Source: Massilia aquatica
Lineage (GTDB): Bacteria; Pseudomonadota; Gammaproteobacteria; Burkholderiales; Burkholderiaceae_D
Direction of reading: 5' to 3'
Length of the DNA stretch: 64,000 nucleotides
NCBI RefSeq assembly: GCF_011682045.1
Contig: NZ_VVIW01000006.1
Location: forward strand, 124,001-188,000
Positions 39,219-42,657 of this stretch are shown here, piece after piece. How positions within the stretch are numbered: position 1 is the stretch's first letter; each line of letters opens with the position of its first letter. The notes below the pieces were generated by a model. That model ran no database searches. It saw only the letters and a list, made by a program, of their open reading frames with translations, and was not told the DNA's origin. The translations under genes and the position numbers were made by a program.

Positions 39219-39665
39219 TTACTTCTTCTCGCCGGTCTGGGCGGCGAAGGTCAGCTTGTCGTAGCCTGCCATGCGCGCCGCTTCCATCACGTTGATGACC
39301 ATCTGGTGCATCGCGAACTGGTCGGCGTTGATGACCACAACCGGGCTCTTCTCGCCCGTTGCCGCCGCCTGGCCGGCCGAGGCAGCCGCTTTCAGGTCGG
39401 CCGCCAGGTTGGCGACATTACTGAAAGAAACCGGCTGGTTGTTGATCGTGTAGTTACCCTTGGCATCGACCGTGACGTTCAGTTCGAACGGCTTTTCCAG
39501 CGCCTTCTCGGCGTCGGCGGTCGGCAAGGTAATCTTCAACTCGGTAAACTTGCTGTAGGTGGTCGTGACCATCAGGAAAATCAGCACCACCAGCAGCACA
39601 TCGATGAAGGGGATCAGGTTGATCTCTGGATCTTCACGTTTCTGGCCGCGGCGAAAGTTCATCAT
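39219..39665 (-). CDS. exbD: ExbD/TolR-family biopolymer transport protein
   Basis: The product is 148 residues. A short cytosolic N-terminus and one membrane helix with LIPFIDVLLVVLIFLMVTT, carrying the conserved Asp that relays protons, then a periplasmic domain. With the ExbB partner it energises TonB-dependent import. It starts at ATG 39662 or 39665, overlapping the exbB stop by 4 nt. No tonB is in the window; the btuB gene in the same window is one likely client. Confidence 0.93.
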   Translation of the reverse strand: MMNFRRGQKREDPEINLIPFIDVLLVVLIFLMVTTTYSKFTELKITLPTADAEKALEKPFELNVTVDAKGNYTINNQPVSFSNVANLAADLKAAASAGQAAATGEKSPVVVINADQFAMHQMVINVMEAARMAGYDKLTFAAQTGEKK

Positions 39666-40267
39666 TTGCGGGCACCGTGCACGATGTCGACGAACTTCAC
39701 TGCTTGCAATTCCATATCGATGATGAAGCTGTCGACCAGGGCGCGGAAGTGGCGATAGGCAATCAGGGCCGGCATGGCGATGGCGATACCGAAGGCGGTG
39801 TTGTACAGCGCGACCGAAATACCGTGGGCCAGCTGGGCCGGATTGGCGCCGGTCGAGTTGGTCGAGCCGAAAATCTCGATCATGCCGACCACCGTGCCGA
39901 ACAGACCCATCAGCGGGGCCAGCGAGGCGATGGTGCCGATCGTGGTCAGGAAGCGTTCCAGCACGTGGGCCACGCCGCGGCCGGCTTCTTCGATCGATTC
40001 TTTCATGACGTCGCGCGGGGCGTCGACATTGCGCAGGGCGGCGGCGAGCACGGTGCCGAGCGGCGAGTTCTTTTCCAGCGAGTCGATCACGTCTTTGGTG
40101 ATTTTGCCGTTGTGATAGACGCGCACCACTTCATCAAGCAACTGCGGCGGCAGGATCTTGGCGCGGCGCAGATAAATAATGCGCTCGACGATCAACGCCA
40201 AGGCGACGAGTGAGGCGATCAGCAACGGCCAGATTGGCCAACCTGCAGCTTGAATAATGGGCAGCAA
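39662..40267 (-). CDS. exbB: MotA/TolQ/ExbB-family proton channel protein
   Basis: The product is 201 residues with three membrane helices and the conserved TolQ/ExbB core (LTTIGTIASLAPLMGLFGTV, VALYNTAFGIAIAMPALIAY). It forms the proton channel with ExbD. The start is TTG at 40267 (TTGCTGCCC), supported by AGGAG 7 nt upstream; no ATG is available in a suitable place. It lies at the left border of the large DnaA-box region. Confidence 0.92.
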   Translation of the reverse strand: MLPIIQAAGWPIWPLLIASLVALALIVERIIYLRRAKILPPQLLDEVVRVYHNGKITKDVIDSLEKNSPLGTVLAAALRNVDAPRDVMKESIEEAGRGVAHVLERFLTTIGTIASLAPLMGLFGTVVGMIEIFGSTNSTGANPAQLAHGISVALYNTAFGIAIAMPALIAYRHFRALVDSFIIDMELQAVKFVDIVHGARK

Positions 40268-41286
40268 AACAAACTCCTGAGTAGATGGGGACGCGTGACT
40301 TGATTCTTGTTAAGAACGAACCCCGGCAATGTAACGTGTTTGCCCGTCACTCGGCAAGTCTACTTCTGCACACCTTCTGTGGATAAGATTGTGTGCAAGC
40401 AGGCATAAGTCGCCTTATGTCATTGATATTAAAGGTAAAGTTTGCCATGCGTAAAAACTAAGCATGTGGAAAATTAAAAATTACACCGATGTTCTGAACA
40501 AAAACTGTGGATAAGATTGTTAGCAATACCGGGGGTGGGGAGTCAAGTGCCTGATTCGAAAGGAAAAAATTTTCAAGCGCAAAAATGTGGCAGACAAGCG
40601 CTACAATCTTCTGCACATCTTTTGTGGATAAGATTGTGAGCAAAGCCGCCGCTTATGGCCTAAGTCCTTGCTTTCATTGAATAAAATGACTGTGCACAAT
40701 AATGATGCAAGCGGGGATAAAGTGCGTTGCGGGCGCCCGGAACGGCCTTGCAGGCGCCCGTTTTCGGGTTTTCGGGTTGCGGTGGACAAGTCCAAGTGTT
40801 CTGCACACCTTTTGTGGACAACATTGTGAGCAAGCCGCTTAACTCATGGTTAAGCCCTTGATTTTAAACGGTAAAACGGTCGTGCTTAAATCGCAGGCAG
40901 GTGCGGCGCTGGCAAGTCCCGGTGGATCAGCGCGGCAGTTCTGCACAGCTTCTGTGGACAAGATTGTGTGCAATGTCGTTCTCGAACACGCAAGTGATTG
41001 ATTACAAAAGGATTACAACCCGGTGCGCAAGTTTGAGGCAGGCCCGCCACGGTCAGTACGGCAAAACTTCCACACAATTTCTGTGGATAACTTTGTGAGC
41101 AACTCCCTGCGGGATCGTCAAAGTGCTTGATTTAACAGGCTTTTCGGGCATTGCACTGAAAACCGGCAGCACGGCTTTTTCTTTTAAAATCATCGACTTA
41201 GAAAAAACTCTTGTTGTTTTTGGCGAAATGTGACATAAGCATGACCGCCCCGACCTTCTGTGGACAGCTATTCCGGAACTCTTCCC
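40268..41286. other. 1-kb non-coding region holding a six-unit DnaA-box array
   Basis: No credible gene is seen between exbB and xseA. The region holds six 35-bp units at 40364-40398, 40492-40526, 40609-40643, 40799-40833, 40939-40973 and 41068-41102. It also has a second AT-richer block about 20 bp after each unit. A GC-rich hairpin (GGGCGCC/GGCGCCC near 40731-40757) lies between units 3 and 4. Confidence 0.75.
40364..41102 (+). repeat. Six direct 35-bp repeats, each with a DnaA box
   Basis: Each unit has fixed architecture: TTCTGCACA, 5 bp, TGTGGATAA, 3 bp, TGTGAGCAA. The central 9-mer is the reverse of the DnaA box TTATCCACA in units 1, 2, 3 and 6 and TTGTCCACA in units 4 and 5. The flanking 9-mers resemble weaker DnaA-type boxes. 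Starts are 117-190 bp apart and all units face the same way. A second conserved block (about AAGTGCTTGATT then AAAAGG) follows each unit at about 17-23 bp. Function is not shown; DnaA titration, an origin-like or a regulatory role are possible. Confidence 0.8.
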
Positions 41287-42657
41287 ATGCAAAACGATTT
41301 CGACCAAGATTTGCCCTTCAGTGCGCCAATGGCGCCGGCGGTACTGACCGTCACCGCGCTCAATGCCCAGGTGGCGCGCCTGCTGGAGCGCTCCTTTCCG
41401 CTGACCTGGATCAGCGGCGAAGTGTCCAATTTCACCAAGGCCAGTTCCGGCCACTGGTATTTCACGCTCAAGGACGACGCGGCCCAGGTGCGCGCCGTCA
41501 TGTTCCGCGGCCGCGCCCAGTACGCCGGTTTTATCCCGCGCGAAGGCGACAAGGTGGAGGTACGCGCCCTGGTGACCCTGTACGGCGCGCGCGGCGACTA
41601 CCAGATCAATGTGGAGGCGATCCGGCGCGCCGGCGTGGGGGCGCTGTACGAAGCCTTCCTGCGCCTGAAAGACAAGCTCGGCGCGCAGGGCCTGTTCGAC
41701 CAGGAGCGCAAGCGTCCCCTGCCCTTGTTTACGCGCAGCGTCGGCATCGTCACCAGCCCGCAGGCGGCGGCGCTGCGCGATATCCTGTCCGCGCTCAGGC
41801 GCCGCGCGCCGCACGTGCGCATCGTGCTCTACCCGGCCCCGGTGCAGGGCCAGGGCGCGGCCGAGCGGATTGCCGGCGCGATCCAGGCCGCCTCGCGCCG
41901 CGCCGAGGTCGACGTGCTGCTGGTGTGCCGGGGAGGCGGCTCGATTGAAGACTTGTGGAGTTTTAACGAAGAAGTGGTGGCGCACGCGATCGCCAATTGC
42001 AGCATGCCGGTCATTGCCGGGGTCGGCCACGAGACCGATTTCACCATTGCCGACTTCGCCGCCGACCTGCGCGCGGCCACCCCCACCGCCGCCGCCGAAC
42101 TGGCGGCCACCCCGCGCGCGGACTGGATCGCCTCGCTGGCGGCCGATGCCGGCGACCTGCGCCGCGCCATGCGCCACACCCTGAACGATGCGCACCAGGG
42201 CCTGGACAACTGGCAACGCCGCTTGCTCAGCCCGTCGGCGCGCATCAGCCACCAGCGCCTCGAACTGGTGGCGCTGTCGACCGCGCTGACGCACGCCGTG
42301 CGCGCGCCGGTGCAACGCCAGGGCTATCTGCTGGCGCAGTTGCGCGCGCGCTGGGCCAGCCATCGGCCCGATGTGCGCGCCCTGCGCAGCGAAATTTCCT
42401 CGCAGCAGCGCCGCTACGCCACCGCCCTGGCCAACCAGCTCGGCCAGAAGCGCGATGCGCTCGGCGCCCTGGCCGCCCAGCTCGAACTATTGAACCCGCA
42501 GCGCACCCTGGAGCGCGGCTACGCCATCGTGCGCGACGCCAAAGGCGCCGTGCTGCGTTCGCCGGCGCAGATCAAGCCGGGTCAGCCGCTCACGGTGCGC
42601 CTGGCCGAGGGCAGCGCCGAGGTCGGCGTGGCCAGCGTCCAGCCCCAGCTGGAGTGA
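41287..42657 (+). CDS. xseA: Exodeoxyribonuclease VII large subunit
   Basis: The product is 456 residues from ATG 41287. The N-terminal OB-fold ([39 protein letters not shown]) is followed by the catalytic domain with [17 protein letters not shown] and [20 protein letters not shown]. It degrades single-stranded DNA with the small subunit XseB, which is not in the window. A GTG 27 bases upstream is less likely as start. The last unit of the DnaA-box array ends 184 bp before it. Confidence 0.95.

Follow-up and report, generated by a model that had tools for sequence, protein, structure and literature searches.

A tandem array of six putative DARS2-like modules between an exbB-like gene and xseA in Massilia aquatica

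Introduction

DARS sites time the re-arming of the replication initiator in Escherichia coli. In the parts of the papers drawn on here (cited by PubMed Central accession), they are treated as two single-copy loci of E. coli and its near relatives. DARS1 and DARS2 share a common core spacing in which box I is reversed (PMC5742627), and prominent among the features described is a head-to-head contact between the DnaA molecules of boxes I and II (PMC5742627, PMC8682772). DARS2 requires IHF and Fis (PMC5742627, PMC8682772) and is only partly active when its IHF sites are shifted 10 bp towards the core (PMC4245941). The two loci lie upstream of uvrB and mutH, respectively, and the DnaA regulon takes in replication and repair genes; tandem boxes 3 bp apart, resembling boxes II and III, also occur at DnaA-regulated promoters (PMC11317965, in the sections used). 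As to distribution, the DARS2 core is called specific to gamma-proteobacteria related to E. coli in one excerpt (PMC4245941), and DARS relatives are put as “beta- or gamma-” in another (PMC5742627).

Our searches of open-licence PubMed Central papers gave none that deals with DARS in Oxalobacteraceae or with DARS in tandem. A multi-copy and respaced version with natural variation in copy number would reveal which spacings between DnaA, IHF and Fis sites matter, and the variation in unit number would show whether recharging capacity scales with genome size. With the register of core, IHF and Fis sites present far from the E. coli group, the evolution of initiation control would become directly testable. 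Here, we analyze a six-unit array of DnaA boxes in a window of 64 kb, i.e., the whole stretch of 64,000 nucleotides under study, and compare it with the E. coli loci and with related genomes.

Materials and Methods

Cores were called with a strict triple-box test, in which box II has at most one mismatch to TTRTCCACA and boxes I and III each have at most two (three in sum) to TTNTNCACA. The comparison with E. coli used a somewhat looser version. Offsets of accessory sites are given in bp from the core end. Two models served for genome searches: R1, a sequence-only model of the six array units, and R2, built from 38 single cores of other families of the order and without any element of the own genome. 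Searches with either model favour the material from which it was built.

Within Oxalobacteraceae, 20 stretches were picked because R1 matched, and 40 further ones by their exbB-like gene, mostly with one for each genus not represented before (three are shortened by a contig end). For the rest of the order, 47 other families supplied 60 stretches upstream of xseA, chosen out of 114 genomes with an xseA match; three of the stretches are shortened by contig ends. They comprise the first-listed genome of each family (n = 47) and 13 stretches added after the R1 hits were known, which are thus not a neutral sample.

Results and Discussion

Architecture of the Array

The array spans positions 40364-41102 of the window, in the intergenic region from an exbB-like gene to xseA, and comprises 18 DnaA boxes within 0.74 kb. 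Its six 35-bp units share one orientation, with plus-strand cores at 40364..40398, 40492..40526, 40609..40643, 40799..40833, 40939..40973 and, closest to xseA, 41068..41102; the steps from unit to unit are 128, 117, 190, 140 and 129 bp. Each unit consists of a 9-mer, 5 bp, a central TTATCCACA or TTGTCCACA on the minus strand, 3 bp and another 9-mer. The central box is an exact TTATCCACA in four units and TTGTCCACA in units 4 and 5, and the outer 9-mers are DnaA-box-like, with zero to two mismatches to TTNTNCACA. In plus-strand view, all six cores thus read box I (+), 5 bp, box II (-), 3 bp, box III (-), as exemplified by TTCTGCACA, TTATCCACA and TTGCACACA in unit 1. Boxes I and III are weak (e.g., TTCTGCACA and TTGCNCACA), which may leave room for a role other than recharging. 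The strict test returned six units in the intergenic region against none in 1000 dinucleotide-preserving shuffles, and six in the whole window against none in 40 shuffles. The spans and spacing given in the initial annotation for six units of fixed architecture and equal orientation are correct.

That annotation had also placed the array far from any dnaA gene and outside coding genes. In this 99-contig draft genome, dnaA is found on contig C9 and the array on contig C66. The array is intergenic, and the lone long open reading frame over unit 6 (41053-42363, minus strand) runs antisense through xseA. The flanking MotA/TolQ/ExbB-type gene (39662..40267, minus strand) keeps the name exbB-like from the initial annotation; its sole NCBIfam match at an E-value of 1e-20 or better is TolQ, under the TolQ cut-off. 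On the other side lies xseA (41287..42657, plus strand), encoding the large subunit of exodeoxyribonuclease VII. An RNA element was considered and dropped, as Rfam gave no match within 39900-41600. Terminator-like hairpins at 40402-40421 and 40837-40855, right after the cores of units 1 and 4, overlap the IHF sites described below, and their count equals the chance expectation.

A second AT-rich block had been noted about 20 bp after each unit. The block is present and corresponds to the IHF consensus WATCAANNNNTTR on the minus strand, with zero or one mismatch; its distance from the core end is not about 20 bp but 17 bp, in all six units. These sites lie at 40416..40428, 40544..40556, 40661..40673 and 41120..41132 in units 1, 2, 3 and 6 (one mismatch each) and at 40851..40863 and 40991..41003 in units 4 and 5 (exact). 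In the alignment of the six units, the 17-bp spacer is constant in length and holds no invariant column; columns identical in all six are confined to the IHF site, the DnaA core and one T immediately past the IHF site. Further downstream, a Fis-like site with at most one mismatch occurs at +50 or +51 in four units: an exact GNNYANNNNNTRNNC at 40449..40463 (unit 1, +50) and single-mismatch sites at 40694..40708 (unit 3, +50), 40884..40898 (unit 4, +50) and 41025..41039 (unit 5, +51). At these offsets and this threshold, units 2 and 6 have none, and units 1, 3 and 4 also have Fis-like matches at other offsets, at one mismatch. Unit 6 carries a second IHF-consensus site at +85 (41188..41200, plus strand, one mismatch) and is followed, at +156 from its core, by an extra DnaA-box-like 9-mer, CTGTCCACA (41259..41267, minus strand).

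Comparison with E. coli Loci

Under the looser test, the geometry of the array is found in E. coli K-12 at DARS1 (L012:208-242) and DARS2 (L010:1636-1670), with the same orientation and gaps, and at none of polA, purH, nrdA, oriC/mioC, datA, priA-rpmE and guaB-xseA. The region upstream of the own dnaA gene does not contain a triple under the triple-box test either. The cut-off matters, since under the loosest scoring low-scoring triples also appear in datA (19 of 27 positions), next to DARS2, at one further place in the window and at other loci of the own genome.

DARS2, whose core lies between rppH and ygdT, upstream of mutH, resembles the array units both in its I(+)-5-II(-)-3-III(-) geometry and in the succession, in one direction, of core, IHF site and (in four of the six units) Fis-like site. 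It differs in being a single copy at another locus instead of six tandem units, in its stronger outer boxes, and in its spacing: our scans place its IHF matches at +58 and +74 and an exact Fis consensus at +110, compared to +17 and about +50 in the array. The array IHF site is thus 41 bp closer to the core than the DARS2 match at +58, or about four helical turns. For the IHF site at about +84 that prevails in the order (see below), the distance to the same-strand DARS2 match at +74 comes to about one turn. Given these near-whole turns, the direction of the bend may be kept. Against this stands the loss of part of the DARS2 activity in E. coli when its IHF sites are brought 10 bp closer to the core (PMC4245941). 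DARS1, in the bioD-uvrB intergenic region, has the same core geometry, but occurs as a single copy and shows no IHF match (at most one mismatch) in the 100 bp after its core. At polA, purH and nrdA of E. coli, double DnaA boxes with gaps of 2-3 bp resemble boxes II and III (PMC11317965, in the part used); in our test, however, they lack the opposed box I at 5 bp.

Single Cores Upstream of xseA in the Order

A triple was found upstream of xseA in 30 of the 47 first-listed genomes, each representing one other family of the order, and in 8 of the 13 added, non-neutral stretches (38 out of 60 in total). Where an exbB-like gene was also seen, the proportion is 30 out of 40. Among 468 combinations of gaps and orientations scored over the 60 stretches, the DARS geometry ranks first, with 38 stretches compared to a mean of 0.23 for the other 467; the second and third (25 and 19) seem to pick up the same boxes with a shift of one base.

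These single cores have a register of their own. An IHF site on the plus strand stands at +83 to +85 in 26 of the 38 cores, and one core has an IHF site at +16/17. The exact Fis consensus occurs at +50/51 in 17 cores, out of 20 such matches over 190 offsets, and a further DnaA box is found at +154 to +158 in 16. For the 30 first-listed cores, the corresponding numbers are 21, 13 and 13. In the alignment of the order cores, conservation outside the core is nearly complete at, among other columns, a G and a C 14 positions apart, which are the ends of a Fis consensus. Unit 6 of the window shows both registers, i.e., IHF at +17 as well as IHF on the plus strand at +85 and the DnaA-box-like 9-mer at +156. 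Because this xseA-proximal unit combines the two, the array probably grew from a single-core element, a suggested order of events in which the locus would have gained IHF sites at +16/17 in Oxalobacteraceae and expanded to as many as eight units.

Conservation and Unit Number in Oxalobacteraceae

R1 matches are present in 129 of 145 Oxalobacteraceae genomes and in 40 of 44 genera, with at least five matches in 58 genomes. Cores adjoin the exbB-like gene in all 20 stretches picked by R1, with at most seven units, and xseA was found in 18 of these stretches. In the stretches picked by the exbB-like gene, a core is present in 20 out of 40, and two or more in eight. Both sets together place a core at the locus in 28 of 44 genera and two or more in 13; the strict test gave no core in the other 16 genera, with one or two stretches per genus. 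The units are hence kept at the same place in relatives, where their absence would have counted against the initial annotation. The maximum is eight units, reached in two stretches. In one of these, L263 (genome G014), the last five units step by 245-246 bp; with nearly identical boxes at such regular steps, this looks like a recent tandem duplication.

The second block is largely, not universally, kept with its spacing. Across all 61 family stretches, 106 of 141 cores have an IHF site at +16/17 (86 at +17 and 20 at +16) and the remainder do not; the next most common offset is +84 on the other strand (n = 15). For the exbB-picked stretches, 38 of 49 cores have the site (at most one mismatch) at +16/17 on the same strand as in the array units. 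Of the 100 family cores that are not nearest to xseA, 48 carry a Fis-like site (at most one mismatch) at +50, with eight at the next offset. Over the means of 44 genera, the number of R1 matches increases with genome size (Spearman 0.58, p 3e-5), a figure uncorrected for phylogeny and model bias. Genus g26 is an exception to this trend, with genomes of 5.0-5.6 Mb and zero or one R1 match.

Elements Elsewhere in the Genome and in the Class

With R2, the own genome contains only 11 elements at five loci in 7.47 Mb, all at an E-value of 4.5e-5 or better, which is not the picture of a widely dispersed repeat family, as the initial annotation had considered. With R1, contig C24 yields two more full units (E 1.9e-9 and 2.4e-8), and weak matches appear on C6, C14 and C19 (E 0.034, 0.037 and 0.22). 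The latter three cores are full triples with stronger boxes and have IHF sites on the plus strand at +84, +83 and +84, opposite to the strand of the array IHF sites. The C14 element adjoins a gene for an UvrD/PcrA-type helicase, and the C19 element lies between hemE and priA. On C24 (L103:6575-6738), the two units are compact, each with a core and an IHF-like site at +17, and adjoin gluconokinase-like and M48-peptidase-like frames, so named by their reading frames. The genome has dnaA and ihfA as well as a homologue of Fis that is 41% identical to the E. coli protein. A short DnaA-domain frame, under the DnaA cut-off, is probably Hda.

In the class, R2 matches 202 out of 229 genomes at E-values up to 1e-3. 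Besides the own genome, 51 of these have one match, 99 have two and 51 have three or more. At E. coli polA, where a double box stands without box I, R2 gives a match too (E 3.2e-6 in 31.5 kb). Weaker class matches therefore need not be DARS, and the triple geometry was used as the criterion, as R2 alone cannot separate DARS from a double DnaA box. The 30 best-scoring loci all contain a triple. Their 31 cores have an IHF site on the plus strand at +83 to +86 in 26 cases and an exact Fis consensus at +50/51 in 16, figures that are enriched by selection since these loci are the best-scoring ones. Fourteen of the 30 loci are at priA; the other 16 have mixed neighbours (30 flanking frames), e.g., uvrB and polA, but also rapA and clpA. 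A rule that the elements sit beside DNA-repair genes was dropped in view of these mixed neighbours at gamma-proteobacterial loci away from priA.

A core with an IHF-like site at +16/+17 is also seen outside Oxalobacteraceae: the exact-pattern matches listed include at least three gamma-proteobacterial records, from a Solemya symbiont, Methylomonas lenta and a Coxiella endosymbiont (L124, L131 and L132). Local duplication has a second case in another order of the class, where stretch L356 (genome G474) holds two full triples beside priA, at a distance of 345 bp.

Proposed Function and Alternatives

Judged by its anatomy, each unit belongs to the putative DARS elements, and we consider it probable that six compact DARS2-like modules are arrayed here in tandem and convert ADP-DnaA into ATP-DnaA. 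Putative as to function, this reading draws on the box anatomy and its conservation. DnaA reactivation was among the options listed in the initial annotation, and the geometry, the IHF register and the conservation all point to it. DnaA titration or an influence on xseA may accompany it as side effects. By analogy with DARS2, ADP-DnaA would bind boxes I to III, with the molecules on boxes I and II head to head, and IHF, probably together with Fis, would bend the flanking DNA. ADP would then leave, and the resulting apo-DnaA would take up ATP. Six such modules at a presumed mid-replichore position would raise the DnaA-recharging capacity, or sharpen the switch, before initiation. The new element would be a tandem DARS-type array at a locus where many other families of the order appear to have just one DARS-type core.

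The density of 18 boxes in 0.74 kb would suit a passive titration locus, which merely sequesters DnaA and whose replication alters the level of free DnaA. We regard this as unlikely, because titration could do without a fixed three-box geometry and without IHF at a constant 17 bp, and many of the array boxes are weak. Nor is the locus near dnaA: in the seven single-contig relatives of exactly known length, out of nine single-contig genomes, the exbB-like gene beside it lies 14.7-32.8% of the chromosome away from dnaA. By coordinates, DARS1, DARS2 and datA of E. coli lie at 32.9, 20.6 and 10.1% from oriC, respectively.

Slightly more doubtful still is a DnaA-responsive control region for xseA, and perhaps exbB, in which the array would amplify transcriptional control. 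The single core upstream of xseA across the order fits such a role, as do the positions of DARS1 and DARS2 upstream of uvrB and mutH and the replication and repair genes in the DnaA regulon (PMC11317965, in the excerpts used). As a main role, however, it is weakened by units that occur where xseA was not found: five units in L100 (a stretch that extends about 4.3 kb past the last unit), one in L095 (extending about 3.9 kb past the unit) and one each in L258 and L264. L229 also has eight units without xseA, though this stretch ends 0.43 kb past the last unit. Three other loci of the own genome are situated at hemE-priA, at the UvrD/PcrA-type helicase gene and at the gluconokinase-like gene (the last by frame reading). 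Moreover, a search for sigma-70-like promoters over 40200-41350 gave none, although shuffles contain just one on average.

It is very improbable that the array is a datA-like locus, which would inactivate DnaA by IHF-dependent hydrolysis of its bound ATP, an option also raised in the initial annotation. DnaA boxes and IHF are combined in datA as well (PMC5742627, in part), yet its box layout is different, its IHF site lies between boxes and not outside a core, and it fails the triple-box test except for the low-scoring reading under the loosest scoring; we set this reading aside because of the box geometry. For the same reason, a secondary or relict origin is extremely improbable, for although the array is a box cluster with IHF sites in non-coding DNA, the triple geometry is absent from E. 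coli oriC and from the region upstream of the own dnaA, and one genome carries the elements at several loci.

Beyond the preferred reading of the array as DARS2-like modules, we see about equal grounds for and against a broader scenario. DARS would be an ancestral element of about 130 bp, with a core, Fis at +50 and IHF at about +84; genomes throughout the class (as delimited in GTDB, with the betaproteobacteria) would commonly have two, often at priA. In Oxalobacteraceae, one locus would have turned into a tandem array of compact modules, whose copy number would act as a dial on DnaA recharging, with matches rising with genome size.

A Further DnaA-Box Region

The own genome has another AT-rich intergenic region of about 1 kb with DnaA boxes, on contig C2 (165859-166619; L107:5860-6620). 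It contains five exact TTATCCACA and, within direct-repeat halves, several pairs of opposed boxes with a distance of 17-18 bp, and no triple under the looser test. It is not beside dnaA and could be a datA-like or titration locus. Similar DNA is present in 28 of 60 family genomes, the own included, and in genome G048 it lies about 363 kb from dnaA.
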